Shown: in pieces, positions 32,496 through 51,690 of the stretch
How positions within the stretch are numbered: the first letter of the stretch is position 1
How the letters are laid out: the number at the start of each line of letters is the position of its first letter
Assembly (NCBI RefSeq): GCF_019903425.1
Contig: NZ_JACHUZ010000013.1
Span: 1,772,168 to 1,836,167, forward strand
Origin: Vreelandella halophila
GTDB lineage: Bacteria; Pseudomonadota; Gammaproteobacteria; Pseudomonadales; Oleiphilaceae
DNA length: 64,000 bases
Direction: 5' to 3'
Program-made: the position numbers and the translations under genes
Notes under the pieces: model-generated
The model's database searches: none
Seen by the model: only the letters and a program-made list of their open reading frames with translations
Told to the model about the DNA's origin: nothing

Positions 32496-32510
32496 TGGCA
32501 AATCTTTTGC
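32496..32510 (+). promoter_or_regulatory. Sigma-54-type promoter for the dimethylamine oxidation genes
   Basis: TGGCAAATCTTTTGC with GG and GC 12 bases apart matches the -24/-12 consensus. It is 54 bases before the cupin ATG at 32564. The context is AT-rich, with TTTTTG just downstream. Confidence 0.75.
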
Positions 32511-32563
32511 ATTCTTTTTGAGAAAATTTGATTCCCACAGAGAAACAAGTAAGGAGATCTCTC

Positions 32564-32920
32564 ATGAAGAAGATGACCCATTTTCCCGGTGCTTCCGAGC
32601 GCAGCTTTCCGAGCATGGAAGTCGAGGGGTGCAATGCCTGGCTCGGGGACGTCGCGGTATCGGATGACCCGGACAAGACCATTGTGAGCGGCTTCTTCCG
32701 CATGGAGCAGTCCGATAAGCCACTGGTCTATGACTACACCTACCATGAGATGAAGTGCATCTTTGCCGGAGGTTTCACCATCACGGATGAAACCGGCCAG
32801 AGTGTCGAAGCCCGTCCTGGTGATGTTTTCTATTTCCCTGCCGGCAGTCAGATCACGTTCGAGACCGATGATTTCGGCGTCGGGTTCTTCTGCGGACAGC
32901 GCCGGGAAGGCGAAGGGTAG
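32564..32920 (+). CDS. EutQ-like cupin protein, first gene of the dimethylamine unit
   Basis: A 118-residue single cupin domain. FHEMKC-type metal sites are not perfect, but TYHEMKCIFAGGFTI (about 66-80) and ARPGDVFYFPAGSQITFE (about 90-107) give the cupin strands and the usual PG turn. AAGGAGATCT precedes ATG 32564, an excellent ribosome site that decides the start over an earlier in-frame codon. It precedes the three monooxygenase subunits and follows the sigma-54-type element, so it is probably co-expressed. It may be an accessory or sensor of the methylamine system; no reaction can be assigned. Confidence 0.82.
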   Translation: MKKMTHFPGASERSFPSMEVEGCNAWLGDVAVSDDPDKTIVSGFFRMEQSDKPLVYDYTYHEMKCIFAGGFTITDETGQSVEARPGDVFYFPAGSQITFETDDFGVGFFCGQRREGEG

Positions 32921-32949
32921 TGGGTTAACCGTGATGGAGGAGGTTCGGC

Positions 32950-33570
32950 ATGTCGATGCCAGGCATCAAGAGCAAACCAGTCTATACCGGACTCACGCCT
33001 GATCCGGGGGCCTGCCAGCATGTACTCGCGGGCGAAGGTCCGGGAACGGAGGCACTGTTGCGGATGCGCCGCGAATTGGCCGAAGGGAATGACGGCATGG
33101 CGCCGGCGGCATCGTCAGTGGCTCTGTTCTATACGGCAGGTGCTGGTCCTGACCGGGGGGATGAGTTGGCCCGCGACGGTCATGGCTCTCCCCGCTTTTT
33201 CCCCGATACCGATGGGCTTTGCCAAGCGTTGAATGAATACCTTGCTGATGCCGGTATGGGGGTACGGCTGTACGTTGCCGGCAGTGAAGCATTTCTTTGG
33301 CGGGTCGTGGCAAGTGCCCGCGATGGGGTGGGCATGTCGGAGGCGGCCATCCAGATGGAGCGGTGCGGTCCGCCAGCGCGACCGGTGTGCTGCATACACT
33401 GCAAAACGACCGATCCTGCCGTATCCACTACCGTATACCAGTGTCCTGGCTGTGGCCTGAATCTTTTCGTCCGGGATCACTTCTCACGCCGGCTGGGTGT
33501 CTACCAGGGGGTCTGTGTGGACGCCGAGGCGCCGGGTGACGTGCCTGAGCCGGAGGAGCTTGATTCATGA
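32950..33570 (+). CDS. Dimethylamine monooxygenase subunit, DmmA-like (zinc-ribbon type)
   Basis: A 206-residue protein whose C-terminal part has paired cysteines CCIHC and CPGCGLNLFVRDHFSRRLGVYQGV (about 148-190), a metal-ribbon signature of DmmA-type subunits. The N-terminal half (about 30-140) is less conserved, with VALFYTAGAG and VRLYVAGSEAFLW. GGAGGAGG lies just before ATG 32950. It overlaps the reductase gene by four bases, so the two are translationally coupled. Together the genes form the enzyme that oxidises dimethylamine to methylamine and formaldehyde. I am sure of the system by context, less so of the exact subunit letter. Confidence 0.78.
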   Translation: MSMPGIKSKPVYTGLTPDPGACQHVLAGEGPGTEALLRMRRELAEGNDGMAPAASSVALFYTAGAGPDRGDELARDGHGSPRFFPDTDGLCQALNEYLADAGMGVRLYVAGSEAFLWRVVASARDGVGMSEAAIQMERCGPPARPVCCIHCKTTDPAVSTTVYQCPGCGLNLFVRDHFSRRLGVYQGVCVDAEAPGDVPEPEELDS

Positions 33571-34532
33571 TCACCTCACAGCAACCCAGTATCCCGGTGC
33601 GGGTGGCCGGAATCGATCAGGTCACACCCTCGGTGAAGACCTTTACCCTCGAGCACGCTGAGGGCATTACCCTGCCATGTTTCTCCGGGGGCAGCCACGT
33701 GGTTGTCACCATGAAGGATGCGCAGGGGCAGGTCTGCCACCGCAATCCCTACTCACTCACCAGTCCGCCGGATGACGGCCGCTGTTACCGGATCTCGGTG
33801 CGCCGTGACGATGCGGGGCGGGGCGGCTCCCTGTTCATGCATGAGCGGCTCGGTGAGGGCGATCTCCTGGAAATATCCGCGCCCGTCAACCTGTTCCCTT
33901 TGAATGTCCTTGCCCGCCGGCATGTGCTTATTGCTGGCGGTATCGGGATAACGCCGTTTCTCGCACAGATGCACGAGCTGCGCCAGCGTGGCGTGCCCTA
34001 TGAGTTGCATTACCAGTTCAGGGATGACGATGGCGCTCCCTATCGGGATGCCATTGCTGCCCGGGAGCCCACCGCCACCTTCTACGAAAGCGATCGAGGC
34101 GAGTACCTGGATCCGCTCGCGATTCTGCGTGATCAGCCGCTGGGCACCCATGTCTACGTCTGTGGCCCTGCCGGACTGATTGAAAGGGTCAGCGATGCTG
34201 CGGCTCAGCTTGGGTGGCCGGCGCGCCATGTCCATGCCGAAGCGTTTACAGCGCCGCCTGTGGGGGAGCCGTTCACGGTGGTCTGTAACAGGAGTGAACG
34301 GGAGATCGAGGTGCCCGGTACTGCCAGTGTTCTGGAAGCGCTGGAGGGAGCAGGGCTGGAACCGCCGTGCTCCTGCCGGGGCGGTGCCTGCGGTGAATGC
34401 GAAACCAGAGTGCTCGAAGGCGATATCGAGCATTACGACCATTTCCTGTCCGACGACGTGAAAGCGGCAAACAGCCGGATGATGATCTGTGTATCCAGGG
34501 CCCGCTCACAACGCGTCGTGCTGGATCTATAG
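33567..34532 (+). CDS. Dimethylamine monooxygenase reductase subunit (FAD/NAD and 2Fe-2S)
   Basis: A 321-residue PDR/VanB-type oxidoreductase that passes electrons from NAD(P)H to the heme subunit. The flavin-binding region shows RNPYSLTSPPDDGRCYRISVRR (about 53-75), the nucleotide-binding motif is VLIAGGIGITPFLAQM, and HVYVCGPAGLIERV is the following loop. The C-terminal ferredoxin has CSCRGGACGECE (about 271-282) and a fourth cysteine in MMICVSRA, the plant-type 2Fe-2S pattern. Its ATG overlaps the upstream stop. The order and sizes match dimethylamine monooxygenase operons of Pseudomonas and Ruegeria. Confidence 0.9.
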   Translation: MITSQQPSIPVRVAGIDQVTPSVKTFTLEHAEGITLPCFSGGSHVVVTMKDAQGQVCHRNPYSLTSPPDDGRCYRISVRRDDAGRGGSLFMHERLGEGDLLEISAPVNLFPLNVLARRHVLIAGGIGITPFLAQMHELRQRGVPYELHYQFRDDDGAPYRDAIAAREPTATFYESDRGEYLDPLAILRDQPLGTHVYVCGPAGLIERVSDAAAQLGWPARHVHAEAFTAPPVGEPFTVVCNRSEREIEVPGTASVLEALEGAGLEPPCSCRGGACGECETRVLEGDIEHYDHFLSDDVKAANSRMMICVSRARSQRVVLDL

Positions 34533-34573
34533 GCCGGCGGTGCCGGCGGCGGTGAACGCTCAGGAGTCGAACC

Positions 34574-35638
34574 ATGCAAGCAGAAACAACAGTCGCAGAG
34601 CCGAATGTGAAACCCGTGGAAACCTTCCGCGATGACTTCACCTACAGCAACAGTCCGGAGGCTATACGGCGATTCCCGTTTCCGTTTCCCGAGGACAGCT
34701 ACATGTACTCGGTCAACATCGAGCCGCACAATGGCGGGCCTCCGGGTTCGGCCTACGCACCGGCTTTCGACATTGACGAGCACTATCTGTCAGAGATCGA
34801 GGAACGCCGCCGGGTGCTGGAAGAGGATCCCAGCCGCTGCACGGTGCTGCCGCACATGATGACGGCCCAGTGGGATACGCTCGAGCTTCTCATGGAGTCG
34901 CTTTCCACGGACTACCCGCAGCACTTCACACTGACCCGGGATGGCGATCGCTGGACCTGGGAGAACCGGTTGCTGGGTATCCGTGACACCTTTACGTTCG
35001 GGGATCCAGAGACCCTGCCACGGGAGCCGTTCGAGTACATCACGCGCCAGGTCCAGGGGGATTTCACCCTGCACGATCAGCGCGATGACATGCTCTACAT
35101 GGATGGCGGCATGCTCACCTGTCAGGCGGACTGGTCGCTTCAGTTCGATCTGGGCATGAACTTCCATGAGTGGCACGGGCCGGTGCCGCGAGCCCATGAA
35201 ATGGGCATCTTTGACCGCGCGCTCAAGTACCTCCTGAATCTGCAGGTGGGCCATCCCGTCCGGCGCCTGAACTGGACCATGACGGTCAACCCGCGTATGG
35301 ATACGTCGCCGGAGAACTACCACAAGTGGGGCATCGACCGGGCTCGCGTAACACCGGAGAACGTCGGCGACAAAGCTCACCTGCGCGTTGAGCTGCAGGC
35401 CCTTTATCGGTTACCGCGCAGCAACGCCGTGCTGTTCAGCATCCGCTGCTATCTCATCAGCGTGAACGAGCTCGCCACCATCCCCAAATGGGCCAAGCGC
35501 TTCCATCGTGTGCTGAAAACGCTTCCTGATGATCTGGCGGACTACAAGGGCTTTATCGACTATCGCCCTCTCGTCGTGGATTACCTGTCCCAGTTCGATG
35601 ATGGGGAAGAACTGACGCCGGGCGCAGCGCCCGGGTAG
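34574..35638 (+). CDS. Heme-dependent oxidative N-demethylase subunit (HODM alpha-like)
   Basis: A 354-residue protein of the former DUF3445 family, the catalytic part of dimethylamine-type N-demethylases. Recognisable segments are CTVLPHMMTAQWDTLELLMESL, YITRQVQGDFTLHDQRDD, MLTCQADWSLQFDLGMNFHEWHGPVP (about 180-205) and VELQALYRLPRSNAVLFSIRCYLI. The histidine in FHEWHGPVP is a candidate heme ligand. GTCG...ATG 34574 follows CAGGAG. Third gene of the monooxygenase set, 41 bases after the reductase. The product methylamine would feed the N-methylglutamate pathway encoded 6 kb downstream. Confidence 0.88.
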   Translation: MQAETTVAEPNVKPVETFRDDFTYSNSPEAIRRFPFPFPEDSYMYSVNIEPHNGGPPGSAYAPAFDIDEHYLSEIEERRRVLEEDPSRCTVLPHMMTAQWDTLELLMESLSTDYPQHFTLTRDGDRWTWENRLLGIRDTFTFGDPETLPREPFEYITRQVQGDFTLHDQRDDMLYMDGGMLTCQADWSLQFDLGMNFHEWHGPVPRAHEMGIFDRALKYLLNLQVGHPVRRLNWTMTVNPRMDTSPENYHKWGIDRARVTPENVGDKAHLRVELQALYRLPRSNAVLFSIRCYLISVNELATIPKWAKRFHRVLKTLPDDLADYKGFIDYRPLVVDYLSQFDDGEELTPGAAPG

Positions 35639-35685
35639 AGGGTGTTTACATGCCGGAGGGAGCCAGGCGCAGACACTCTTCTGGC

Positions 35686-35700
35686 TGGCCTGCAATTTGC
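35686..35700 (+). promoter_or_regulatory. Sigma-54-type promoter for the soluble chemoreceptor
   Basis: TGGCCTGCAATTTGC with GG and GC 12 bases apart, 57 bases before ATG 35757. It lies in the 118-base gap after the N-demethylase gene, so the receptor can be expressed on its own under nitrogen control. Confidence 0.7.
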
Positions 35701-35756: not shown

Positions 35757-37625
35757 ATGCTTTTGATCCCCGGACTGGGTCAGCGCAACAAGGAAAATGG
35801 GGCGAGCCAGGAAAGCCTGCCTGAATGGCTGCATGCCCTGGAGTCCGGGGAAGTGCACAGGGCACTGGCGATTGGGGGAAGCGCCATACCGGATAATGTG
35901 CGTCATGGCCTGGAGTCGGTGCAGGCTGTGGAGCAGGCGGGCGGCTCACCACGTGCCTTGCAGCTGCTCGCAGAGCGGGCCGAGGCTCTGGTCGCTCACG
36001 CGGAACAGGGCCTTGATGTGGTTGATACCACGCTCGGTGAAATAGGGGCCCGTTCGGAGGAACAGCAGACGTTCCTGGGCCAGACGCGCGAGCAGCTTGA
36101 TGAGAGTGATCGCAACGCTGACTCGCTGCGCACCGCGATGGATCAGGAGCTACAGGAAACGCACCAGTTTTTTACTGATCGCTTCGCGACCCTGTCGGAA
36201 CGGATCGAACATCAGTCCGAGCGATCCCGGGCATTCATCAAGACGATTGATGACATCAGCCGGACCGTCCAGCTGCTGTCACTCAATGCATCCATTGAAG
36301 CGGCGCATGCCGGGGAAGCGGGCAAGGGGTTCGCGGTTGTCGCCTCGGAGATCCGGGACCTGGCCATGCGGACCCAGCAGAGTGCGCGTGAGGCGGACGA
36401 GCAGATTGACCTGACGGCTGTCTCCGAGTCCCTGTCGCAGGTTCTGAGTGATGCGGAAGCGCGCCTGGAAACACTCTCCCATCAGGTCAGCGATTCACTG
36501 GGAACTTCCCATCGTCTGCTGGGATCCATGAGCGGCTACATCGACAAGATCCAGAGCAATAACCGAATCATCAGTGAGACGGTTGCCCTGGCGGGTGATA
36601 CGACCCGTCATGCCCGGACCCGCAGTGAATGGAGTCGCACTACGCTCCGTGAGGTTGCTGGCGGTCATGCGGGAGACGACCCGCGTGAGGCTCGGAAGGC
36701 TGTCGCGAGTGTACTCCAACGGGAACGTATTACGCCGGATCCCGGCTATGATCGACTGGCTGACATCCGTGAACGCGGGGTGATCCGGATCGCGATTGAG
36801 CCGGCCTTTCTGGGGGTCTCGTTCCGTTCCTCACCGAACGAACCGCTCAAGGGCCTTGATGCGGAATGCGCGCGTGCCTTCGCCGACTGGCTCGGGGTTC
36901 GCTGTGAGTTCGTGGAGCACCCCTGGGCGCTCTGTACCCAGCTGCTGGAAGCGGGCCGCAAAAGGGGAGAGCCCGAGGCGGATGTGGCGTGGAGCGCCCT
37001 GCCGCCAGTGGCGGGATATGACCGGGCTGCTTTCTCCGAACCCTACGCCTTTCTCCCCTACGTGCTGGCCCGCCGGGCCGGTGATGAGCGCATTACCGGT
37101 CTCGCCGATCTGGAAGGGCGGGTGCTCGGGGTGATCAATGACCCCGCCGCGCTGCAGATACTGGAGCAGAAGGGACTGCGCTGGCAGGCCAATGCCGGCA
37201 AGCCGGGCGGAACGATCCGGTTGGCCAATCTTCTGGCGTACAATGACCAGAGCGTCATTCACGACAGCCTGGCCAACGGCGTGGTGGATGCGTTTGCCGT
37301 GGATCTGCCCATCTATCACTGGGTCTGCTACGGCGAGGACAGCCCCATGCGGGGGCAGCTTGAAATCCTGCCGGGTAATATTGACGATGAACTGTGGTAC
37401 TACAGCGCTGCCGTGGCCAATTCGCCGGGGAGTTACACGCTCCTCGAAAGCATCAACCGGTTTATCCGGGAGTTCCGCCAGACTCAGACCTACCAGGGCA
37501 TACTCCAGCAGTGGTTGGGCCAAGTCTACGATAATCCTGGCTGGCAGTACCCTGAAGGCGTTGTCACGGTTGCCGAGCTGGAGCGGACCCACCAGGCGCA
37601 CTGCCGCCATTTCAGTATTGATTGA
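35757..37625 (+). CDS. Soluble methyl-accepting protein fused to a C-terminal solute-binding-like domain
   Basis: A 622-residue protein with no signal peptide and no membrane segment. Residues about 85-290 form a coiled-coil methyl-accepting signalling domain whose tip reads [34 protein letters not shown] (about 170-203, given here in parts: [20 protein letters not shown]). Residues about 330-600 match the SBP_bac_3 fold: [50 protein letters not shown] periplasmic-type binding domain placed after the signalling domain in a cytoplasmic protein is unusual. It lies between the dimethylamine genes and a permease, behind its own sigma-54-type element, so an intracellular amine sensor for chemotaxis is plausible. 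Confidence 0.85.
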
Positions 37626-38745: not shown

Positions 38746-38760
38746 TGGCCCGCAGCTTGC
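38746..38760 (+). promoter_or_regulatory. Sigma-54-type promoter for the Amt transporter
   Basis: TGGCCCGCAGCTTGC with GG and GC 12 bases apart, 74 bases before the Amt ATG. The wider 38564-38745 gap otherwise shows only short repeats (GCACCCTGTGCAC near 38590). Confidence 0.75.
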
Positions 38761-38834: not shown

Positions 38835-40136
38835 ATGGAAGAGCAACTGAGTCAACTGCAATCAACGGTGGAGCTGTTGAGCGCCGTCGATATGGAGATT
38901 TACTACTGGTGGTGTACCGCCATCATGTTTCTTATTCACGCCGGCTTTCTTGCCTATGAAATGGGGGCGTCACGAGTCAAGAACTCGCTGACGGCAGGGG
39001 TCAAGAATATCCTGGCACTGGCCTACCTGATTCCGGCTTTTTACTTTGTAGGTTGGTGGATCTACAACGCTTTTCCCGGAGGTTTCACGATAACGGAAGG
39101 CGCTTCGGCAGCCGCCCCCTGGAGTTCGAATATGGGGCCCAACCTATCGGACAAGGGAACCGGGGTTTTCTGGGCTGCCTTTACCCTGTTTGGTGCCACC
39201 ACGGCATCAATCCTTTCGGGGGCAGCGATTGAAAGGATCCGGCTGAGTGCCTATGTGATCCTGGCGTGCGTGCTCGGGGCCGGCGTCTGGATTCTGGGCG
39301 GCGCCTGGGGCTGGCATCCGGACGGCTGGCTGCTGACAGAGCTGGGCTATCACGACATCGGAGCCGCTGGGGTCGTTCACACCGTGGCCGGGTTCTTTGC
39401 GCTGGGTGTGCTGATCAACCTGGGTGCGCGCGTGGGCAAATACGGCCCCAATGGTGAGATCAATGATATCCGTCCGCACAACCTGCCCATGGCGTTGATT
39501 GGTCTGATGCTGATCATCGTCGGCTTCTTTGGCTTCCTGGGTGGCTGCATCATCTACAACGTGGGTAGTGACTGGACCACCATCTATGGCAACCCAACGA
39601 ACCTGTCCGCGTTTGGTTTCAATACGCTGATGGGCTTTGCCGGTGGCGTTATCGGTGCCTACGCGATCAGCCGTGAGCCTTTCTGGATGATGTCCGGCGC
39701 CCTTGCCGGGATCATTTCCGCGGCGGCGGGTCTGGATGTCTATTATCCGCCGGTTGCCTTCCTGGTTGCCTTCATCGGCGGCTGTCTCGCACCGATTGGC
39801 GGTCGCATGCTTGAAAAAGCCGGTATCGACGATGCGGTGGGCGCTATCTCGGTTCATGGTTTCGCCGGTGTCTGGAGCCTTATTGCCTCCGGGATCTTCC
39901 TGCACGGTTATCCGAATGTGGGCGATCTGCCGGACGTTACCTTCATCGGGCAGCTGATCGGTGCAGTCGTGATGATGGCGCTTGGCTTTGTTCCTGGCTA
40001 TGGGCTGTCACTTGCCATGAAATCCCTGGGAGTCCTTCGGGTACCCGAGGAGGTCGAAAAGATTGGTCTGGATGCGGTGGAAGTTCCGTCCGTGGCCTAT
40101 CCGGAATCATCCATCCCAGCCCGCGCGAACCAGTGA
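38835..40136 (+). CDS. amt: Ammonium/methylammonium transporter (Amt family, divergent)
   Basis: A 433-residue channel with about eleven membrane helices. Conserved Amt elements are AGFLAYEMGASRVKN in the first helix, GATTASILSGAAIERI, the first pore histidine in AAGVVHTVAGFFALG (near 185) and the second in GAISVHGFAGVWSLIASG (near 340). The usual FxxFF gate segment and the N-terminal signal peptide of classical AmtB are not clearly present, so this is a divergent member. ATG 38835 is preferred to a GTG three codons earlier, because GGGAG then sits eight bases upstream. Sigma-54-type control and the neighbouring methylamine genes suggest uptake of ammonium or methylammonium. A PII gene is not next to it. 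Confidence 0.9.
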   Translation: MEEQLSQLQSTVELLSAVDMEIYYWWCTAIMFLIHAGFLAYEMGASRVKNSLTAGVKNILALAYLIPAFYFVGWWIYNAFPGGFTITEGASAAAPWSSNMGPNLSDKGTGVFWAAFTLFGATTASILSGAAIERIRLSAYVILACVLGAGVWILGGAWGWHPDGWLLTELGYHDIGAAGVVHTVAGFFALGVLINLGARVGKYGPNGEINDIRPHNLPMALIGLMLIIVGFFGFLGGCIIYNVGSDWTTIYGNPTNLSAFGFNTLMGFAGGVIGAYAISREPFWMMSGALAGIISAAAGLDVYYPPVAFLVAFIGGCLAPIGGRMLEKAGIDDAVGAISVHGFAGVWSLIASGIFLHGYPNVGDLPDVTFIGQLIGAVVMMALGFVPGYGLSLAMKSLGVLRVPEEVEKIGLDAVEVPSVAYPESSIPARANQ

Positions 40137-40207: not shown

Positions 40208-40417
40208 ATGGATCCTAGTACATTTGCTGCGTGGGAAGGGGCTAATGCGGTATTCACCTTCGGGCCCGGCTCAGCTGGAATGTGGCTGTTCCTGCTGGGT
40301 GCCATTGGGATCGGGATCGGGGTTCTTGGTCGGATGATCATCCATGAGAACCAGACGTTCCGGTCCCTGGACCCGGACCTGGTGAAGGAAGGGGGAATGC
40401 GGGGCGCCAACATCTGA
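40208..40417 (+). CDS. Small single-span membrane protein next to Amt
   Basis: A 69-residue protein with one strong membrane segment, MWLFLLGAIGIGIGVLGRMI (about 25-44), then a charged tail. AAGGAG lies seven bases before ATG 40208, an excellent start. It is 71 bases after amt and before a terminator, so it is the last gene of the amt transcript. I do not recognise the family. Its position suggests an accessory or regulatory subunit of the transporter. Confidence 0.75.
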   Translation: MDPSTFAAWEGANAVFTFGPGSAGMWLFLLGAIGIGIGVLGRMIIHENQTFRSLDPDLVKEGGMRGANI

Positions 40418-40700: not shown

Positions 40701-40715
40701 GCACAAAGAAAGTGC
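40701..40715. promoter_or_regulatory. NtrC-type binding site
   Basis: GCAC-N7-GTGC (40701-40704 and 40712-40715) matches the core of the NtrC consensus. It lies about 110 bases upstream of the sigma-54-type -12 element at 40825, a usual enhancer distance. Confidence 0.55.
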
Positions 40716-40811: not shown

Positions 40812-40826
40812 TGGCAAGGGGATTGC
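40812..40826 (+). promoter_or_regulatory. Sigma-54-type promoter for purU-mgd-gmaS-mgs
   Basis: TGGCAAGGGGATTGC with GG (40813-40814) and GC (40825-40826) 12 bases apart; the wider context TTGGCA...TTGCAT follows the consensus except for one base. The ATG of purU is 28 bases downstream. It would drive the nine-gene methylamine operon. Confidence 0.8.
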
Positions 40827-41726: not shown

Positions 41727-41733
41727 GTGTGCT

Positions 41734-42975: not shown

Positions 42976-42979
42976 CGCT

Positions 42980-43252
42980 ATGAAGATCATCGATTGTCCG
43001 GTTATCGGGCCACGCCCGGCTGCTGAGTTCACCTACGGCGGGGCAGTAGGGGCCCCGCCCGTGGAGGATCCGACGCCTGACCAGCTGGCCGAGCATGTTT
43101 TCTACCGTGCCGGGGCTCCCGGGGTCCTGCGCGAGTGGTGGTACCACCGGCCGACCGGTCGCTGGTTTGTCCTGGAACGGAATACGGCGACCAACGACAT
43201 CCTGAGGACTGTTGAGCCCGAGGAGGTGGCCTATGCCATTCCGATGCTATGA
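42980..43252 (+). CDS. mgdB: N-methylglutamate dehydrogenase subunit B (sarcosine oxidase delta-like)
   Basis: A 90-residue small subunit. The start MKIIDCPVIGPRPAAEFTYGG and the tryptophan-rich EWWYHRPTGRWFVLERN are typical of SoxD-type delta subunits. The usual four zinc-binding cysteines of SoxD are largely missing (only Cys6 is visible), a feature of this protein to check. It overlaps mgdC by 20 bases. It stabilises the complex with subunits A, C and D. Confidence 0.88.
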   Translation: MKIIDCPVIGPRPAAEFTYGGAVGAPPVEDPTPDQLAEHVFYRAGAPGVLREWWYHRPTGRWFVLERNTATNDILRTVEPEEVAYAIPML

Positions 43253-46142
43253 ACCCCGGCCCGGCGAGTGGATCGATCGTTCCCGTAAGCTGCGTTTCCA
43301 GTTCGAGGGGCACTCCTACACCGCTCATCCAGGGGACACCATTTCATCGGCACTGCTTGCCAACGGGGTCTCGCTGCTGGGGCGCAGTTTCAAGTACCAC
43401 CGTCCACGCGGTGTCGTCAGCATGGCGAATCACGACGTCAACGCGCTGTTTGAAACCGGGGACGATACCAACATCCGGGGTGACATAACGCCTGTTCAGG
43501 ATGGCATGGAGCTGCACCCGGTCAACGCGCGTGGCGGTCTCAGGAAGGACCGTGATCGTTACCTCGACTGGTTCGGGCGTTTCATGCCGGTCGGGTTCTA
43601 CTACAAGGCATTTCACCGGCCACGCTCGCTGTTTCCGTTCTTTGAGCGGATGATCCGCGAGCGGGCAGGTCTGGGACGGGTCAACATGCAATGGTCGGCC
43701 CGCCGGAGGCCGAAACGCTATGGCCACTGCGATGTCATGGTGGTGGGCGGCGGACCCGCCGGAATGAGTGCCGTGCTTGAGGCTGCCGCTCAGGGTCTTG
43801 AGGTCATCCTGGCCGATGAGAACCCGGTCCTGGGAGGGTCACTCGGGTACCAGTGGGGCGGGGATGCTGATGCCCGGCAGTGGCTTGGGCAGCTGCTTGA
43901 AGAGGTGGACGCCCATCCGCGTATAACCGTCATGACCTCGTCGGTAGTGCTCGGGTACTACGAGGATCACTGGCTTCCGGTGGCGACCCCGGATGGCATC
44001 GTCAAGGTTCGGTCTCGTGGCGTGGTGGTGGCAGCTGGGCTGCTCGAGCAGCCGGCGGTGTTCCGGAACAACGACCGCCCGGGCGTGATGCTGGTTTCGG
44101 GCGCCCAACGGCTGCTGGAGCGTTTCGGCATCATGCCCTGCAGGGAGGCGGTGGTGCTGGCCGCCAATCCCGAGGCCTACGCGGCCGCCCGTCAGCTGCA
44201 GGAAGCTGGCGTTCGCATCCGTGGCATTGCCATCTGTGGGGAATCCGGCAGTGACAGTGAGCACGCGCGGGCACTGACCCGTGCTGGAGTGCCCCTGTGG
44301 CCGGCGACCACCATTCACGAAGTGCATGGTCGGAACTCGGTTAGCGGCGTTTCCCTGATCGGGACTGACGGCGGATCGTCACCAGTGGATCGCATTGATT
44401 GCGACGGTGTTCTTGTCAGCACTGGCTGGGCACCGGCTGCCCATCTGCTGTACCAGGCCGGCGGTCGCTTGCGTTATGACGACACTCTGGAGATGCAGGT
44501 CCCCTCTGAGTGGCCCGAAACGGTTGTTCCGGCGGGGCGTCTCAATGGTGCCTTCACGCTCCAGCAGCAGCGGGACGATGCCCGCGAGGCTGTGCGTTGC
44601 CTGACTGCGGCCATGGAAGGTGAAACTGGGTATCGGGCGCGTTCGCTGTTTCGCGACAGCGTGGCCCATGGCGCGGCGTGGCCGGTATCCCGCCATCCCC
44701 GGGGCCGTAATTTCGTGGATCTCGACGAGGATCTGCAGCTTAAGGACCTCGAGCAGGCCGCCCGTGAGGGGTTCGATAACGTCGAGCTTCTCAAGCGCTA
44801 CTCCACCGTGGGCATGGGGCCCAGCCAGGGCAAGCACTCCAACGTCAATGCCATCCGGGTTCTCGCACGGTACATGGGCCAGGGCATGGATGCGACCGGA
44901 ACCACAACCGCCCGCCCCATGTATCACCCCGTCCGGCTGGAGGATCTGGCGGGCCGCCGCTTCCGGCCCAGGCGCCTTTCTCCGCTGCACGATCGCCATC
45001 AGCAGCTCGGCGCCGAATTCATGGAAGCTGGCGAGTGGCTCAGGGTGGCCCACTACGGCGGCACAAGGGAGCCAGAGGCTGCCATTGCTGACGAGGTTCA
45101 GGCAGTCCGGAACGCGCTGGGTGTGATCGATGTGTCGACGCTGGGCAAGATCGAGGTTTTCGGGCCGGATGCCGCCCGGCTGCTGGAAGGCTCCTACACC
45201 ATGCGCATGGGGAACCTGCGGTCCGGAATGACGCGCTACGGACTGATCGTTGACGAATCCGGCGTGATCGAGGATGACGGTGTTGTAGCGCGCCTGGCCG
45301 AGGATCACTTCTACCTGTCGGCAACCAGCGGGCATGCGGCTGCCACCTATCGAATGCTTCGGCGCCACGCCCTCGAGTGGGGGCTGGATGTCCACGTGGT
45401 CAATCGCACTGGACAGATGGGGGCGGTGAACCTGGCAGGGCCGGAAAGCCGGCGTGTGCTGGAGTCCCTGGTGGATACGCCACTGCATGAAGAAGCCTTC
45501 CCCAATCTGGGCGTCCGCGAAGCCCGGATCGGCGAGGCCCGGGTACGCCTCCTTCGGGTGGGGTTCGTCGGGGAACTGGCCTATGAGATCCATGCACCGG
45601 CGTCTGTGATGGGGACCATCTGGGATTCCCTCATGGCCGCAGGGTCTGAGTCCGGGATACGGCCTTTCGGAGTGGAAGCACAACGGATTCTGCGCCTGGA
45701 GAAGGGGCACATCATCGTCGGGCAGGATACCGACGGACTGACTACCCCGTTCAACACGGGTATGCCCTGGTCTGTTCACCTGAAGAAGCCGTTCTTCCGC
45801 GGGCGTCCGGCACTGGCTCACCTGAAGGGGCGCGAGTCCCAGCAGCTGGTTGGTTTTGCGCTTCCCGCGGATTCCCCCTTGCCCCGCGAGTGCCATCTGG
45901 TGATCGAGGACGGCGAGATAGCGGGCCGCGTCACCAGCGTGGCCGCCAGCCCCATTCTCGGTCATCCCATTGGACTGGCGATGGTGGACCGGGCCCTGGC
46001 CGAGCGCGGGGATCCCCTTCAGATACGAATCGACGAGGGCCGGATGGTGAGCGCCTGGCGCATGACCACGCCTTTCTACGACCCGGAGGGCCGCCGCCAG
46101 TTTGCCGGGTACCCGGACAGCAGTGAGGAGAGTCACCAATGA
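43233..46142 (+). CDS. mgdC: N-methylglutamate dehydrogenase subunit C (sarcosine oxidase alpha-like)
   Basis: A 969-residue subunit. The N-terminal part (about 1-120) has a ferredoxin-like fold (FQFEGHSYTAHPGDTISSALLANG). The NAD(P)/FAD domain starts at DVMVVGGGPAGMSAVLEAAA (about 165-185), followed by VVVAAGLLEQPAVFRNNDRPGVML. The C-terminal GcvT-like domain (about 600-965; LSPLHDRHQQLGAEFMEAGEWLRV) binds folate and can move the released methyl group to THF as methylene-THF. The short ATG-to-ATG overlap with mgdB and the overlap with mgdD fit a tight operon. Length is standard for the family. Confidence 0.92.
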   Translation: MPFRCYEPRPGEWIDRSRKLRFQFEGHSYTAHPGDTISSALLANGVSLLGRSFKYHRPRGVVSMANHDVNALFETGDDTNIRGDITPVQDGMELHPVNARGGLRKDRDRYLDWFGRFMPVGFYYKAFHRPRSLFPFFERMIRERAGLGRVNMQWSARRRPKRYGHCDVMVVGGGPAGMSAVLEAAAQGLEVILADENPVLGGSLGYQWGGDADARQWLGQLLEEVDAHPRITVMTSSVVLGYYEDHWLPVATPDGIVKVRSRGVVVAAGLLEQPAVFRNNDRPGVMLVSGAQRLLERFGIMPCREAVVLAANPEAYAAARQLQEAGVRIRGIAICGESGSDSEHARALTRAGVPLWPATTIHEVHGRNSVSGVSLIGTDGGSSPVDRIDCDGVLVSTGWAPAAHLLYQAGGRLRYDDTLEMQVPSEWPETVVPAGRLNGAFTLQQQRDDAREAVRCLTAAMEGETGYRARSLFRDSVAHGAAWPVSRHPRGRNFVDLDEDLQLKDLEQAAREGFDNVELLKRYSTVGMGPSQGKHSNVNAIRVLARYMGQGMDATGTTTARPMYHPVRLEDLAGRRFRPRRLSPLHDRHQQLGAEFMEAGEWLRVAHYGGTREPEAAIADEVQAVRNALGVIDVSTLGKIEVFGPDAARLLEGSYTMRMGNLRSGMTRYGLIVDESGVIEDDGVVARLAEDHFYLSATSGHAAATYRMLRRHALEWGLDVHVVNRTGQMGAVNLAGPESRRVLESLVDTPLHEEAFPNLGVREARIGEARVRLLRVGFVGELAYEIHAPASVMGTIWDSLMAAGSESGIRPFGVEAQRILRLEKGHIIVGQDTDGLTTPFNTGMPWSVHLKKPFFRGRPALAHLKGRESQQLVGFALPADSPLPRECHLVIEDGEIAGRVTSVAASPILGHPIGLAMVDRALAERGDPLQIRIDEGRMVSAWRMTTPFYDPEGRRQFAGYPDSSEESHQ

Positions 46143-46618
46143 GCCTAACCGTAACCGAGGAACATCGGCTGTCGCTCCACCAGTTGGTGGGCCCGGGCGC
46201 CTCCGAGGCGCTTGCTCGCGACGGATTGCCCACGCCGCCCGGTGAGCTGGAAGCCCTGCCGCATGAGGCCGGTTTCGTGGCGCGGACGGGCGCAAGGGAG
46301 TACCTGGTGGGGCATCGCCTGGGATGGACACCGGGCGAAGCATCCATGCCGCCCTGGTGCTTTGAACGCTGCGACCGGATCCTGCGGCTTCAGGGGGAAA
46401 GCTGGTGTGAGGTCATGAGTGAACTGTGCTCGCACGATATGCACCGCATGGGGAGTGGGGACTGGTTCATGGGAAGCATGGCCGGTGTTGATGCCTGGCT
46501 GTACGTCACGGGCAGCGACGAAGGCGGCGTTCTGGTTGGTTGTGACCCGTCACTGGGTGACTACCTGCGAAGTGTTCTGGATGCGGTCATTGCAGACCGG
46601 TATCAGAGATTCAATTGA
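46139..46618 (+). CDS. mgdD: N-methylglutamate dehydrogenase subunit D (sarcosine oxidase gamma-like)
   Basis: A 159-residue gamma subunit with the typical loose conservation of Sox[33 protein letters not shown] and the late [16 protein letters not shown]. It overlaps mgdC by four bases (ATGA) and ends 17 bases before gmaS. It completes the four-subunit dehydrogenase. Confidence 0.85.
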
Positions 46619-46635
46619 GCGAGAGGAGTGTGACG

Positions 46636-47970
46636 ATGTTGCCGAAAGATGCTGAAACGCTGTTGGCGGAGAATGACATTCATTATGTGCTGGCGCAGTT
46701 CGTGGATATCCACGGTGTTGCCAAGACCAAGTCCGTGCCGGCGAACTGTCTCATGAATGTGGTCGAGGATGGTGCCGGCTTCGCGGGATTCGCGGTATGG
46801 GGGCTGGGGATCGAGCCCCATGGTCCGGACTTCATGGCCAGGGGTGATCTGGATACGCTGACCCCGATTCCATGGCAGCCGGGCTATGCACGCCTGGCCT
46901 GCACGGGTTACGTCAATAACGAACCCCATCCCTACGATTCCCGGTATGTCCTGCAGAGACAGCTGGAACGGCTGAATGAGCGGGGCTGGACCTTTAATAC
47001 CGGCCTGGAGCCGGAATTCTCGCTGTTCATGCGGGATGAGTCCGGGCAGCTGCGACTGGTGGACGATACCGACAACCTCGACAAACCCTGTTACGACTAT
47101 AAGGGCCTTTCGCGTGCCCGTTCCTTCCTGGAGGAGCTGGTTTCCAGCCTCCAGCAGGTCGGCTTCGAGGTTTACCAGATCGACCACGAAGACGCCAACG
47201 GCCAGTTCGAGATCAACTACAGGTTCAGCGATGCCCTAACATCCGCCGACCGCTTTGTGCTGCTTAGGATGGGGGCGGGCGAAATCGCCAACCACCTGGG
47301 AATGGTCTGCTCGTTTATGCCCAAGCCCATGTCGAACCGCACGGGCAACGGCATGCACTACCACATGTCCATTACCGATGAGCAGGGGCGCAACCTGTTC
47401 GGTGATGACGACGATCCCCAGGGGCTGGGGCTGTCGCCCCTGGCGTACAACTTCCTGGGCGGGCTTCTGGAGCATGCGCCCGCGCTCTGCGCCTTTGCAG
47501 CCCCCACCGTCAATTCCTACAAGCGGCTGGTCGTGGGCGGCTCCAGTTCCGGTGCCACCTGGGCGCCTGTGTACATCACCTACGGCGACAACAACCGCTC
47601 GGCTATGGTGCGGGTGCCCTATGGCCGGCTTGAGTTCCGTCTGCCGGACTCGGGCTGTAATCCCTACCTGGTGACCGCCGCTATGATCGCCGCGGGGCTG
47701 GACGGGGTTGAACGCAAGCTTGACCCGGGTAAGGCCCAGAACATCAACCTGTACGACCTGTCTCCCGAACAGCGGGAAGAAGCCGGCATTGGCCTTCTCC
47801 CGCAGAACCTCAATGAGGCGCTGGATGCGCTTGAGGCGGATCTGCTTTTCAGTGAAACGCTGGGCGAGGGCATTGTCAGCGAATTCCTGCGGATCAAGCG
47901 GGATGAGTGGATTGAGTACAGCCGTCATGTCTCCGACTGGGAAGTAACGCGTTACGCGGAGTTTTTCTGA
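46636..47970 (+). CDS. gmaS: Gamma-glutamylmethylamide synthetase
   Basis: A 444-residue glutamine-synthetase-fold enzyme that ligates methylamine to glutamate with ATP, giving gamma-glutamylmethylamide. GS-type motifs are [25 protein letters not shown] (about 185-200), [29 protein letters not shown] and [19 protein letters not shown] 46636 follows GAGAGGAGTG. The placement between mgdABCD and mgsABC makes GMAS much more likely than a housekeeping glutamine synthetase. The family is shorter than GlnA and has a distinct N-terminus. Confidence 0.93.
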
Positions 47971-47995
47971 ACCGGGGAGGCCAGGAGATAGAACC

Positions 47996-48922
47996 ATGTG
48001 TGGAATTGTTGGACTGTATCTGAAAGACCCGTCGCTTGAGCCGCGTTTGGGTGAACTGTTCGAGCCCATGCTGCTGGCAATGGCGGACCGGGGGCCGGAC
48101 AGCGCGGGTTTTGCGATCTATGGAGACGAAGTGCCTGCCGACCAGCTCAAGTTCACGCTGCAGAGCGAAGAGCCGGGCTACGACTGGGAGGGACTGGTTA
48201 CCGCCATGGAGCGGGACCTTGGTAACCCGCTGAGCTGGTTTCGCAACGCCACGGCGGTTGTGATCAAGAGCGGGTCCGGGGAGGAGCGGGTGCGTGAGTG
48301 GCTGGCCCGTAACGCCCCGGGCGTGAGCCTCATGAGCGTGGGCCGCAGTATCGAGATTCTCAAGGGGGTAGGGCACCCCAGGCTGGTGGCCGACCGGTTC
48401 TCCCTGAGCGGTATGAAGGGCTCGCATATCATCGGGCATACCCGTATGGCGACAGAGAGTGCGGTCAGCATGGAGGGCAGTCACCCGTTCACCACGGGGC
48501 TGGATCTCTGCCTCGTGCATAACGGATCCCTGTCGAACCACAACCGCTTGCGGTTGGAGCTTGAGCGCCAGGGCATGACGTTCGAAACCGAGAACGATTC
48601 GGAAGTGGCCGCGGCGTACCTGACCTGGAAGCTCCGTGAGGGCGAGACCCTGACCCAGGCACTGGAAAGTGCGATCCAGGATCTTGATGGCTTCTACACC
48701 TTCACCATCGGCACGCGGGACGGGTTTGCCGTACTGCGTGACCCCATTGCCTGCAAGCCGGCGGTGCTTGCGGAGACGGATGCCTACGTGGCGATGGCCT
48801 CGGAATACCGGGCACTGGCGCGTCTGCCCGGCATCGCCGGCGCACGCGTCTGGGAGCCCGAGCCGGGCCGGGTTTATGTCTGGGAAAACGCCCAGCAGGC
48901 CAGTGAGGAGACGGGAACATGA
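47996..48922 (+). CDS. mgsA: N-methylglutamate synthase subunit A (class II glutamine amidotransferase)
   Basis: A 308-residue class II amidotransferase domain protein. MCGIVGLYL places the catalytic Cys2 directly after the initiator, and GHTRMATESAVSMEGSHPF with LCLVHNGSLSNH are the substrate loops. In this complex it transfers the methylamino group instead of ammonia from gamma-glutamylmethylamide. The last four bases overlap mgsB. The family corresponds to the N-terminal domain of glutamate synthase. Confidence 0.92.
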   Translation: MCGIVGLYLKDPSLEPRLGELFEPMLLAMADRGPDSAGFAIYGDEVPADQLKFTLQSEEPGYDWEGLVTAMERDLGNPLSWFRNATAVVIKSGSGEERVREWLARNAPGVSLMSVGRSIEILKGVGHPRLVADRFSLSGMKGSHIIGHTRMATESAVSMEGSHPFTTGLDLCLVHNGSLSNHNRLRLELERQGMTFETENDSEVAAAYLTWKLREGETLTQALESAIQDLDGFYTFTIGTRDGFAVLRDPIACKPAVLAETDAYVAMASEYRALARLPGIAGARVWEPEPGRVYVWENAQQASEETGT

Positions 48923-49620
48923 AAAAACTGAGTCTTGCTGAGCACTCAGTACGCGAGCTGAACTCAGCGCTTCACGATCCCCGGGCCATGGACGATGGTA
49001 CCGAATGGTATGTCAGTGATCCGGACGGCCGCCACGCGCTTGCCTGCGGCCTGAACGACGAACTGCAAGTGACCATCGATGGTCACGCCGGGTATTACTG
49101 CGCCGGAATGAACCAGCACGCAACCGTTGTAATCAACGGGACTGTGGGGGTGGGGGTGGCCGAGAACATGATGTCGGGCCTTGTGCGGGTGCGCGGCAAC
49201 GCCTCGCAGTCCGCCGGTGCCACCGGCCATGGCGGCCTGCTCGTCATCGAGGGCAATGCCTCGGCCCGCTGCGGGATCTCGATGAAGGGGATCGACATTG
49301 TCGTGGGTGGTGACGTTGGCCATATGAGTGCCTTCATGGGGCAGGCCGGCCGGCTCGTGGTGTGTGGGGACGCGGGAGAAGCCTTTGGTGATTCCATCTA
49401 CGAGGCCCGGCTCTATGTCCGGGGGCAGGTGGAATCGCTTGGGGCGGACTGCATCGAAAAGCCCATGCGTGAGGAACACCGGGAAGAACTCAGGGGGCTG
49501 CTGGCGCACGCCGATATGGATTTTGATCCCGGCGAATTCCGCCGCTATGGATCGGCCCGCAAGCTCTACAACTTTCACGTCGACAATGCCGGTATCGAAC
49601 AAGGAGACAGCCATGAGTGA
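48919..49620 (+). CDS. mgsB: N-methylglutamate synthase subunit B (GXGXG domain)
   Basis: A 233-residue beta-helix protein equal to the C-terminal domain of glutamate synthase. Repeating glycine-rich turns are visible: GTVGVGVAENMMSGLVRVRGNASQS, TGHGGLLVIEGNASARCGISMKG and DVGHMSAFMGQAGRLVVCGDAGE. It probably forms the structural core and ammonia/methylamine tunnel of the synthase. It overlaps mgsA by four bases and mgsC by eight. Confidence 0.92.
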   Translation: MKKLSLAEHSVRELNSALHDPRAMDDGTEWYVSDPDGRHALACGLNDELQVTIDGHAGYYCAGMNQHATVVINGTVGVGVAENMMSGLVRVRGNASQSAGATGHGGLLVIEGNASARCGISMKGIDIVVGGDVGHMSAFMGQAGRLVVCGDAGEAFGDSIYEARLYVRGQVESLGADCIEKPMREEHREELRGLLAHADMDFDPGEFRRYGSARKLYNFHVDNAGIEQGDSHE

Positions 49621-50938
49621 GCGTACCGAGGACTGGGGGCTTCGCGAATCCGCAACCTTCGATCGGCGGACCATCCATGAGATCCAGCGCGCTGCTGACA
49701 CGGGTATCTACGATATCCGCGGTTTCGGGGCCAAACGCCATCTGCCGCACTTTGATGACCTGCTGTTCCTGGGCGCCAGCATGTCCCGCTATCCCCTGGA
49801 AGGGTACCGGGAAAAGTGCGCCACCGATGTGGTTCTGGGCGACCGTTATGCCAGCAGGCCACTGCACCTCGATATTCCCGTGACCATCGCGGGTATGAGT
49901 TTCGGGGCCCTCTCCGCCAATGCCAAGGAAGCACTTGGACGTGGTGCCTCGGCCATGGGGACCAGTACCACCACCGGCGATGGCGGCATGACCGACGAGG
50001 AGCGCGGCCAGTCCCGAAACCTTGTGTATCAGTACCTGCCCTCACGATATGGCATGAATCCGGACCATCTGCGTATGGCGGATGCCATCGAGGTGGTTCT
50101 TGGTCAGGGTGCCAAGCCGGGTGGCGGTGGCATGCTGATGGGCCAGAAAATCAGTGAGCGCGTGGCTGAGATGCGCACCCTGCCGGCAGGAATTGACCAG
50201 CGTAGCGCCTGCCGGCATCCGGACTGGACCGGCCCCGATGACCTGGCCATCAAGATCGAGGAGCTGCGGGAGATCACGGACTGGAAGACACCGGTCTACA
50301 TCAAGGTGGGCGCGAGCCGCACCTATTACGATGTGAAGCTGGCGGTGAAATCCGGTGCCGATGTGGTGGTGCTGGACGGGATGCAGGGCGGCACGGCGGC
50401 CACCCAGGAAGTGTTCATTGAGCACGTTGGCATCCCGATTCTCGCGGCCATTCCCCAGGCGGTCCAGGCACTGCAGGAGATGGGCATGCACCGGCGCGTT
50501 CAGCTGATTGTCTCCGGTGGCATCCGCAGCGGTGCGGATGTTGCCAAGGCCATGGCACTGGGGGCGGATGCAGTGGGAATCGGGACTGCCGCCCTGATTG
50601 CCCTGGGCTGCAATCACCCACGCTGGAGTGAGGACTACCAGCGGATCGGATCGGAAGCCGGCTTCTATGATGATTACCAGGCCGGGCAGGATCCCGCGGG
50701 TATTTCGACCCAGGATCCGGAGCTGGCCGCCAGGCTGGACCCAGAGCGGGCCGGACGACGCCTAGCCAACTACCTGCAGGTGATGACCCTGGAAGCCCAG
50801 ACCATCGCGCGTGCCTGTGGAAAATCGCACCTGCATAACCTGGAACCTGAGGATCTGGTCGCGCTCAACATGGAGGCAGCCGCCATGGCACGGGTGCCGC
50901 TCGCGGGTACGGAGTGGATTCCGGGAATGGGAACCTAG
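49613..50938 (+). CDS. mgsC: N-methylglutamate synthase subunit C (FMN/Fe-S glutamate-synthase-type)
   Basis: A 441-residue TIM-barrel subunit equal to the central synthase domain. VTIAGMSFGALSANAKEALGRGA (about 88-110), GQGAKPGGGGMLMGQKIS, KVGASRTYYDVKLAVKSGADVVVLDGMQGGTAA and SGGIRSGADVAKAMALGADAVGIGTAAL define the FMN-binding barrel. The C-terminal cysteine IALGC and later ACGKSH may belong to an iron-sulfur site. It reduces the iminoglutarate intermediate to N-methylglutamate. It is the last gene of the operon. Confidence 0.93.
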   Translation: MSERTEDWGLRESATFDRRTIHEIQRAADTGIYDIRGFGAKRHLPHFDDLLFLGASMSRYPLEGYREKCATDVVLGDRYASRPLHLDIPVTIAGMSFGALSANAKEALGRGASAMGTSTTTGDGGMTDEERGQSRNLVYQYLPSRYGMNPDHLRMADAIEVVLGQGAKPGGGGMLMGQKISERVAEMRTLPAGIDQRSACRHPDWTGPDDLAIKIEELREITDWKTPVYIKVGASRTYYDVKLAVKSGADVVVLDGMQGGTAATQEVFIEHVGIPILAAIPQAVQALQEMGMHRRVQLIVSGGIRSGADVAKAMALGADAVGIGTAALIALGCNHPRWSEDYQRIGSEAGFYDDYQAGQDPAGISTQDPELAARLDPERAGRRLANYLQVMTLEAQTIARACGKSHLHNLEPEDLVALNMEAAAMARVPLAGTEWIPGMGT

Positions 50939-50977
50939 TTGACCGGAGCCCCTTGCTATACTGATTCTTCACACTTG

Positions 50978-50992
50978 GGGCCAGGCTGGCCC
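50978..50992. promoter_or_regulatory. Palindrome before the XRE-cupin regulator
   Basis: GGGCCAG-G-CTGGCCC is a perfect 7+1+7 palindrome between mgsC and the regulator gene, a candidate autoregulatory operator. GC-rich palindromes can arise by chance in such DNA. Confidence 0.4.
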
Positions 50993-51029
50993 TGAGGTGA
51001 ACTTTGATCAGCAGAAGGTGACGGTTGCC

Positions 51030-51665
51030 GTGACGAAAGATCCTTACGTGCCCAAGACCCTGGCTACACGGGTCGTGGACGAAGACCGCCAGATGGGGCT
51101 TGAGAGCTACATCGGGACTGTGTTGCGTCAGAAACGCATCAACCAGGAGCTTACGATCGCGGACGTGGCGGAGCTGGCGGGGCTGAGCAGGGGGATGGTC
51201 AGCAAGATCGAAAACGGTCAGGTGGCAACCAGTCTCGACTCCCTGGCACGTCTCACGAGCGTGCTTGGCCTGACCCTGTCGCAACTGTTCCGGGATTACG
51301 ATTCGCCGGAGGGCGGTGCCCAGCACGTCAAGGCCGGAGATGGGCTCGAGGTGGTGCGTCGCGGCACCAAGAAAGGGCATACGTATCACCTGCTGGCGTA
51401 CAACCGGGGGCACCAGAGAAACTTCGAGCCCTTCCTGATTTCCATGGATGACGAAAGCGAAGCGTTCCCCACCTTCCAGCACGAGGGGGTTCAGTTCATC
51501 CACATGCTGGAGGGACGGATCGATTACCGCCACGGTCAGCACGTCTACACCCTGGAACCCGGGGATTCGTTCACCTTCGACGCCCAGGTTCCCCATGGGC
51601 CGGAGCGACTCGCCAGGGTCCCGATCCGGTTTCTCGCTGTGACCATTTTCTCGCCCAGGGAATGA
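51030..51665 (+). CDS. XRE-family regulator with a C-terminal cupin domain
   Basis: A 211-residue transcription factor. The helix-turn-helix (about 26-80) reads LTIADVAELAGLSRGMVSKIENGQVATSLDSLARLTSVLGL, and the cupin (about 100-208) has HEGVQFIHMLEGRI and LEPGDSFTFDAQVPHGPERL. Such PuuR/SutR-type regulators sense small amines or amino acids in the cupin pocket. The start GTG 51030 follows GAAGG; a GTG at 50997 is the alternative and would add 11 residues. It lies between the methylamine operon and eutBC and may control either. Confidence 0.88.
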   Translation: MTKDPYVPKTLATRVVDEDRQMGLESYIGTVLRQKRINQELTIADVAELAGLSRGMVSKIENGQVATSLDSLARLTSVLGLTLSQLFRDYDSPEGGAQHVKAGDGLEVVRRGTKKGHTYHLLAYNRGHQRNFEPFLISMDDESEAFPTFQHEGVQFIHMLEGRIDYRHGQHVYTLEPGDSFTFDAQVPHGPERLARVPIRFLAVTIFSPRE

Positions 51666-51675
51666 GCCGAAGGGG

Positions 51676-51690
51676 TGGCAGCCAACTTGC
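51676..51690 (+). promoter_or_regulatory. Sigma-54-type promoter for eutBC
   Basis: TGGCAGCCAACTTGC with GG and GC 12 bases apart, 39 bases before the eutB ATG at 51730. The element lies just after the regulator stop, so eutBC can be expressed separately. Confidence 0.75.

Follow-up and report, generated by a model that had tools for sequence, protein, structure and literature searches.

Genes and sigma-54-type elements of the island

The stretch of DNA analysed here, called the window, covers 64 kb of a 3.53 Mb genome (G000:C13:1772168-1836167) and carries an island of nitrogen genes with promoter elements of the sigma-54 type, some of which are followed by a palindromic operator. The island comprises a cupin gene with dimethylamine monooxygenase genes (the cupin-dmm operon), a soluble chemoreceptor gene (mcp), the ammonium transporter gene amt, a long unit running from purU through the mgd, gmaS and mgs genes to xre, which encodes an XRE-cupin regulator, and the ethanolamine ammonia-lyase genes eutBC (Table 1). 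The eutB gene was recognized by its protein family, and its neighbour is presumably eutC, judging from its position. Elsewhere in the same genome (G000:C13:703834-705153) lies another eutB, which shares 70% identity with that of the island.

Table 1. Genes, promoter elements and putative operators in the window (positions are those of the window)
Feature	Position	Strand	Basis or remark
Cupin and dimethylamine monooxygenase genes (DmmA-like, reductase, HODM alpha)	32564..35638	+	Pfam; NCBIfam DmmA family
Soluble chemoreceptor (mcp)	35757..37625	+	MCP signalling domain and C-terminal SBP_bac_3
Ammonium Transporter Family protein (Amt)	38835..40136	+	Pfam PF00909; start ATG 38835 or GTG 38826
purU, sarcosine-oxidase-like mgd genes, gmaS, mgsABC	40854..50938	+	best family match, gene order, earlier reading
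XRE-cupin regulator (xre), after mgsC	50997..51665	+	HTH_3 and Cupin_2
eutB and eutC, ethanolamine ammonia-lyase	51730..53909	+	eutB by NCBIfam
Predicted sigma-54 -24/-12 element, cupin-dmm	32496..32510	+	kept in L046 and L047
Predicted sigma-54 element, amt	38746..38760	+	kept in L046 and L047
Predicted sigma-54 element, purU-mgd-gmaS-mgs-xre unit	40812..40826	+	conservation; match to model R1
Predicted sigma-54 element, eutBC	51676..51690	+	kept in L201 and L202; no operator
Sigma-54-like element, mcp	35686..35700	+	GG and GC kept in L046; no operator
TGGC-N7-TTGC before an amino-acid-binding protein	14429..14443	-	probably chance
Putative dmm operator, GAAAATTTGATTCCCACAGAGAAA	32522..32545	+	at predicted +1; 1 mismatch; conserved block among islands
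Putative amt operator, GAAACATAGTTTCTTTGTAGTAAA	38779..38802	+	between promoter and amt; 1 mismatch; contains perfect GAAACNNNGTTTC
Putative purU operator, GAAACAAAGTTGATTAATGAGAAA	40838..40861	+	at predicted +1; 2 mismatches
NtrC-like box, GCACAAAGAAAGTGC	40701..40715	+	3 mismatches to strict, 1 to relaxed consensus

The sigma-54 consensus is GG-N10-GC at -24/-12 (TGGC...TTGCW). A first-pass annotation of this DNA had listed six TGGC-N7-TTGC sites, five in front of island units and a sixth serving an amino-acid transporter, and had expected about two of them by chance. The coordinates and strands of all six are right, the spacing is that of sigma-54 promoters, TTGC is followed by A or T in every case, and the sites lie 27-74 bp before plausible starts of first genes on the correct strand. 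The list was incomplete and the chance estimate wrong: the window holds 14 copies against a shuffle mean of 4.03 (maximum of 9 in 100 shuffles), and the whole genome holds 227 (117+110), or some 4.1 in every 64 kb, compared with 154 (78+76) copies of the reversed pattern. Among the eight further sites of the window, six fall within genes, another sits at the edge of the window, and the last lacks a start on its own strand within 3.8 kb. A simple gene finder shows 5 of the 14 sites to be intergenic and well placed, or 6 of 14 when a gene missed by the finder (13613-14365) is added; in a control of 20 segments of 18 kb each from other parts of the genome, 2 of 19 sites were well placed. Placement together with conservation tells the real sites from the chance ones.

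Conservation of the -24/-12 elements

The same island was also found in Halovibrio salipaludis YL5-2 (L046, L201), the closest named relative found, and in a metagenome-assembled genome recorded as an uncultured Ectothiorhodospiraceae bacterium (L047, L202), where it is more distant. The HODM alpha protein is 96% identical to that of H. salipaludis, from which the organism of the window would be Halovibrio-like. The dmm element reads TGGCAAAGCTTTTGC in L046 and TGGCAGAGTACTTGC in L047; distances to the gene starts in these two loci are -68 and -64 for cupin-dmm and -83 and -81 for amt. In addition, 7 of 18 amt relatives have the site, namely those of L046, L047 and five Pseudomonas/Stutzerimonas loci, where it lies at -125 to -130. 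The element of the purU unit is found at -42 before purU in L046 and 268 bp before mgdA in L047, in whose island no purU was detected. The DNA flanking purU is largely kept as well in H. salipaludis, and the L047 comparison is therefore the discriminating one: it leaves mainly TGGC and TTGCAT (for dmm and purU, TTGCATTC) and the palindrome right after them. The eutB element is GTGGCAGCCAACTTGCATGG in H. salipaludis and TGGCTCGCGATTTGC in L202 within intergenic DNA that is otherwise different; TGGC-N7-TTGC was absent from the 400 bp upstream of eutB in 29 of 29 other eutB loci, two of which have a looser TGGT...CTGC.

Since the -24/-12 bases are kept with drifting flanks, most clearly in the distant island, the dmm, amt, purU and eutBC elements are, as judged by comparison, probably true sigma-54 promoters, and four of the five island promoters first proposed are conserved in both other islands. 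The fifth, that of mcp, is partly kept. The aligned promoter in L046, TGGCACCGTATTAGC, has GG and GC at the same spacing with TAGC in place of TTGC, and it adjoins a remnant of the chemoreceptor gene, the start region (MLLIP), the gene itself being missing. The survival of GG and GC beside this remnant suggests that the mcp site is probably real. The site at 14429 fared differently: its counterpart in H. salipaludis is TGACCTGATCCTTGC (TGACC...), in which the -24 GG has become GA although the protein encoded there is 98% identical. With this essential GG lost, it was discarded as a sigma-54 promoter of the amino-acid transporter and is probably a chance match.

Apart from gmaS, the genome has a single Gln-synt_C gene, which was taken to be glnA; it served as positive control and is preceded by TGGCAAAGCTTTTGC. 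One RpoN is encoded in the genome. The view that all the sites arose by chance in GC-rich DNA would agree with the abundance of the bare pattern in the genome and with the fate of 14429; for four of the six sites, those of dmm, amt, purU and eutB, it is contradicted by a conservation specific to position and base, and we regard it as very improbable.

A putative palindromic operator downstream of three promoters

The dmm, amt and purU elements are each followed by the motif GAAA-N5-TTTC-N7-GAAA, which begins respectively 11, 18 and 11 nt after TTGC and shows 1, 1 and 2 mismatches over its 12 defined positions. By the -12 convention, the operators that begin 11 nt after TTGC start at about +1. 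The mcp and eutB elements lack it, and the putative operator thus divides the island into two predicted regulatory classes, dmm, amt and purU on one side and mcp and eutB on the other. In the window the motif accompanies 3 of 22 TGG[CT]-N7-NTGC[AT] sites, exactly those of dmm, amt and purU, from which it had been defined; with up to 3 mismatches it was found at none of 147 background sites of this kind in 360 kb of the same genome.

The perfect GAAACNNNGTTTC occurs at just two places in the genome. One is the amt promoter; the other (L200:1501-1513; G000:C13:2591246-2591258) separates a further XRE-cupin gene from a gene resembling gcvT, as far as a reading of its translation tells. The second place suggests that a related repressor might act on glycine cleavage genes.

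Further operator-like matches with 2 mismatches were seen upstream of purU (40688-40711, plus strand), where the match overlaps the NtrC-like box, and near 32511-32534 on the minus strand at dmm; one stray match lies near 9679 (minus strand).

The composite promoter upstream of gmaS in other families

A GmaS search of 390 genomes of the order gave 44 with a match at 1e-100, and 29 gmaS loci (L127-L155) were examined over 510 bp each. An XRE gene stands beside gmaS in 14 of them (L129, L130, L135-L142 and L144-L147), and the composite, defined as a sigma-54-like site with a downstream operator of at most 3 mismatches, was found in 12 of these 14. In four loci (L129, L130, L136 and L137) an additional operator, differing at 1 position, starts 28-29 bp before the TGGC of the -24 element. 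Complete composites occur in five other families (f20, f26, f36, f37 and f38); a sixth, f6, is represented by its sole locus L135, with a partial operator. The gmaS promoters of the named Stutzerimonas/Pseudomonas loci L082, L102 and L105 carry the same composite.

A sequence-only model of 56 positions, R1, was then built from 14 gmaS promoters of other genomes; L142 was dropped as a duplicate of L141, and L133, L135 and L137 were added by eye. On the window and 364 kb of the same genome, R1 reported only dmm (expectation value, E, 1.6e-9) and purU (E 6.6e-4). Over the whole genome it gave three matches: dmm (E 1.3e-8), purU (E 0.0054) and, at E 0.13, C13:848606, which was dropped as chance, no TGGN9TGC being present on that strand there. 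On 28 other loci R1 made 12 matches. In H. salipaludis these were dmm (E 3.1e-9, the same place being matched on the other strand too) and purU (E 1.5e-4), in L047 mgd (E 1.8e-3) and dmm (E 8.6e-3), and in the Pseudomonas dmm regions L100 and L116 a palindrome variant, GAAC...GTTC (E 2-4e-6). The remainder were two overlapping L116 matches (E 0.007 and 0.07) and three at E 0.18-2.9.

The XRE-cupin protein as likely reader of the operator

The XRE-cupin protein of the island contains HTH_3 and Cupin_2 domains. Thirteen loci have xre just before mgsA, 12 of them alphaproteobacterial and one from Methylohalomonas, and GAAA-N6-TTC is present in 11 of the 13 xre-mgsA intergenic regions against 0.11 expected by shuffling; this pattern was picked after 11 of the 13 loci had been viewed, and several are close relatives. 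According to the accessible part of PMC7574528, an XRE gene also recurs in amine clusters of Rhodobacteraceae. As described in the available text of PMC7901475, the XRE-cupin proteins of Pseudomonas aeruginosa are transcription inhibitors that bind beside their own genes, mostly in core promoters. By comparison, the palindrome analysed here also lies in a core promoter near an xre gene. The adjacency of the operator to genes of relatives and the P. aeruginosa precedent make the XRE-cupin protein the likely reader, and it likely binds the operator. The available passages of a paper on XRE motifs (PMC12565409) contain no GAAAC or GTTTC text.

Another regulator could read the same cis architecture, or the XRE-cupin protein could activate instead of repress. 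Such an arrangement would accommodate a locus that carries the module with no XRE gene in the DNA examined (L133, see below), and it finds a parallel in the amine regulator TmaR of Ruegeria, an AraC-type activator in the consulted part of PMC13390433. No AraC-type HTH was found among island proteins in general scans; no search was aimed at TmaR relatives in the genome. The position of the operator between xre and gmaS in 12 of 14 loci, the comparable palindrome in 11 of 13 xre-mgsA intergenic regions, and the second perfect site of the genome, which adjoins another XRE-cupin gene, speak for the XRE-cupin protein itself, and we consider a different reader or an activating role rather unlikely.

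NtrC as candidate activator

Fifteen Sigma54_activat matches exceed the cut-off in the genome, 12 of them above 200 bits, and none lies in the window. NtrC was identified at L004:1018-2502, above both NtrC equivalog cut-offs and, by coordinates, a few kilobases from glnA. The GCAC-N7-GTGC box first noted before the purU unit is present at 40701 (CGCACAAAGAAAGTGCA), and it is kept in L046 with a better box in L047 (TGCACCTAATGGTTGCA). The bare pattern is no rarer than chance (3 found, 2.09 expected) and its count was rejected as evidence; the purU box is supported by its position and conservation.

Candidate boxes were scored with the strict NtrC consensus. It gave 2 mismatches at the genome's own glnA, 1 at L047 mgd and 3 at purU of the window; a score of 3 mismatches or better is also seen in about 22% of random 300-bp stretches. 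A relaxed consensus was adopted post hoc, after the strict one had failed to single out purU. With it, purU of the window has 1 mismatch, equalled by 0 of 300 Markov shuffles, and L047 mgd has 1 (p 0.02). Among the gmaS promoters, L138 has no mismatch and L133, L140 and L145 have 1 (p about 0.003 or less); L129, L130, L139, L141 and L146 have 2 (p 0.02-0.04), as has L136 (p 0.06). L135, L137, L147 and the three Stutzerimonas/Pseudomonas gmaS promoters remain at p 0.31-0.46, and the five Pseudomonas/Stutzerimonas amt promoters at p 0.78-0.84. For dmm, p was 0.14 in the window, 0.06 in L046 and 0.14 in L047; an NtrC-like box also precedes amt in L047 (p 0.03).

From these scores NtrC is a fair candidate activator of the purU/gmaS units, and its role at the other units is a guess. 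In Burkholderia an ntrC mutant grew better, not worse, on methylamine, which, as far as the accessible part of PMC5491218 goes, does not favour NtrC there. NtrC and gdhA are treated in the available passages of PMC6237917.

The single NtrC/RpoN regulon of the first-pass annotation is therefore sustained in its components, namely RpoN, NtrC, the glnA site, four conserved promoters and an NtrC-like box at purU, and stays unproven as a whole: no NtrC box above chance precedes mcp, amt or eutB of the window, and the 14429 site is not conserved. In its plain form, a nitrogen-limitation regulon in which the palindromes are incidental initial-transcribed sequence, it would fit RpoN, NtrC, the glnA control and the NtrC-like boxes at purU and several gmaS promoters. 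Two observations go against it, the missing NtrC boxes at eutB, mcp and amt of the window and an operator conserved as precisely as the promoter across families with no counterpart at the 147 background sites. We judge the plain regulon quite unlikely.

A predicted AND-gate and the points against it

The best explanation of these data would be a sigma-54 AND-gate with XRE-cupin repression at dmm, amt and purU, to which we give about two chances in three in its favour, that is, we hold it to be probable. Nitrogen limitation would supply the activator (NtrC, at least at purU) and the sigma-54 promoters would fire, and an XRE-cupin repressor on the operator at or just after the predicted +1 would keep dmm, amt and purU shut. 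A metabolite of the pathway, bound by the cupin domain, would release the repressor, and these three units would be expressed only under nitrogen shortage in the presence of amine. The location of xre at the end of the purU unit should lead to negative autoregulation and a self-limiting repression. The eutBC and mcp units would answer to the sigma-54 signal alone. The comparisons show the -24/-12 elements, the operator, their near-fixed spacing, the recurrence before gmaS in other families and the adjacency of the operator to XRE-cupin genes. From them we infer that the XRE-cupin protein binds and represses, and does not activate, what the inducer is, that NtrC is the activator, and that the genes from purU to xre are transcribed together.

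Several observations weigh against this gate. A sigma-54 site within 350 bp was lacking for gmaS in L048 and L106, for mgdA in L049 (Methylohalomonas), and for dmmA in L048 and L049; indeed no listed locus has one within 350 bp of dmmA, the site in L046 and L047 preceding the cupin gene. The alphaproteobacterial loci have none at the tested genes, bar one stray match (L073). With sites missing in all these loci, the sigma-54 part is not universal. Among the XRE-adjacent gmaS loci, L144 has no site and L135 a partial composite only, and L133 has the composite with no XRE gene within the DNA examined. The module is missing in the 510 bp of all seven low-identity gmaS loci (L149-L155) and in those of L127, L128, L131, L132, L134, L143, L144 and L148; in L127, L128, L131, L132, L134 and L148, gmaS follows mgd genes and its promoter may thus lie further upstream. 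Several positive loci belong to the same genus, and L141 equals L142 over the module, so the counts are not independent. The R1 training promoters had been chosen partly for showing the operator first seen in the window, which makes the R1 test out of sample without being fully blind. The amt promoter, whose operator begins 18 nt, not 11, after the -12 element, is not among the R1 matches. Finally, the best NtrC boxes at amt, mcp and eutB of the window do not rise above chance (3-4 mismatches, p 0.59-0.99).

A wider proposal is put forward tentatively, at roughly one chance in three: the sigma-54 promoter with an XRE-cupin operator at +1 could be a portable module governing monomethylamine assimilation in at least six families of the order, that of the window included, with a second operator copy just upstream of -24 in some lineages. 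Copies of the module would have come to serve dmm and amt in Halovibrio-like genomes and, as a variant, dmm in some Pseudomonas, and it would act as an AND gate of nitrogen need and amine with N5-methylglutamine or N-methylglutamate as inducer.

Relation to known systems

The island promoters resemble the NtrC/sigma-54 nitrogen-scavenging promoters of the glnA type in their -24/-12 elements, in the NtrC-like box of purU and several gmaS promoters and in the nitrogen-acquisition genes that they serve, and the genome's own glnA has the same -24/-12 element and NtrC-like boxes. They differ from this type in that three of them have an operator at about +1 and several units are without a recognisable NtrC box. 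With the P. aeruginosa XRE-cupin inhibitors, in the available text of PMC7901475, the island protein shares the HTH_3 and cupin domains and a palindrome in a core promoter beside its own gene; in the island, however, the targets are of the sigma-54 type and three units share the operator, and sigma54/RpoN is absent from the main text of that paper.

Regulation of a methylated-amine pathway has been published for Ruegeria, where, in the consulted part of PMC13390433, TmaR coordinates the dmm, gmaS-mgs and mgd operons in the trimethylamine catabolism of Ruegeria pomeroyi. TmaR thus covers similar operons as an AraC-type activator, whereas the island has sigma-54 elements and a likely XRE-cupin operator. 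In the accessible portions of the open-access literature we found no report that sigma-54 controls gmaS or the N-methylglutamate pathway and no description of an architecture combining sigma-54 with an XRE-cupin operator. The gmaS gene is a marker for oceanic monomethylamine use (available part of PMC7948447). The composite offers a concrete cis code by which such a regulon can be predicted from sequence, and it suggests a way in which shared amine islands are connected to the nitrogen control of their hosts.

The soluble chemoreceptor and the small gene after amt

The chemoreceptor has no segment hydrophobic enough to cross the membrane, and its SBP_bac_3 domain is 61-63% identical to proteins of Pseudomonas lopnurensis and Stutzerimonas stutzeri loci. 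Relatives lie at L102:15124-16992 and L105:15012-16829 (both minus strand), downstream of an amt gene with a sigma-54-type site; no such site precedes the receptor genes themselves. With a threshold of E 1e-60, a search of 369 genomes of the class returned the fusion of MCP and SBP domains from 1, that of the window itself, and the named loci L102 and L105 carry one too. A search of 58 genomes gave, besides the window's own protein, weak matches of at most 61 bits only, and L082, L100 and L125 match just part of it. The receptor may sense an intracellular, amino-acid-like amine metabolite, and this could be the same metabolite as the inducer of the XRE-cupin protein. It recalls MtpA, the Methylobacterium methylotaxis sensor (accessible part of PMC10613068), as a cytosolic chemoreceptor tied to one-carbon metabolism; it differs by its C-terminal SBP_bac_3 domain, the two sequences not having been compared.

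Where the window has the chemoreceptor gene, H. salipaludis has genes for a trimethylamine monooxygenase and a trimethylamine N-oxide demethylase (L046:11149-14922), and the remnant of the chemoreceptor start lies beyond them. Directly 3' of amt, a small open reading frame is present in the window (40208-40417) and at L046:17717 (+), L047:5849 (-), L102:17366 (-) and L105:17144 (-); in the five islands inspected it encodes 58-69 amino acids with a hydrophobic middle and a common WEGA/FEGA...VFTF start.

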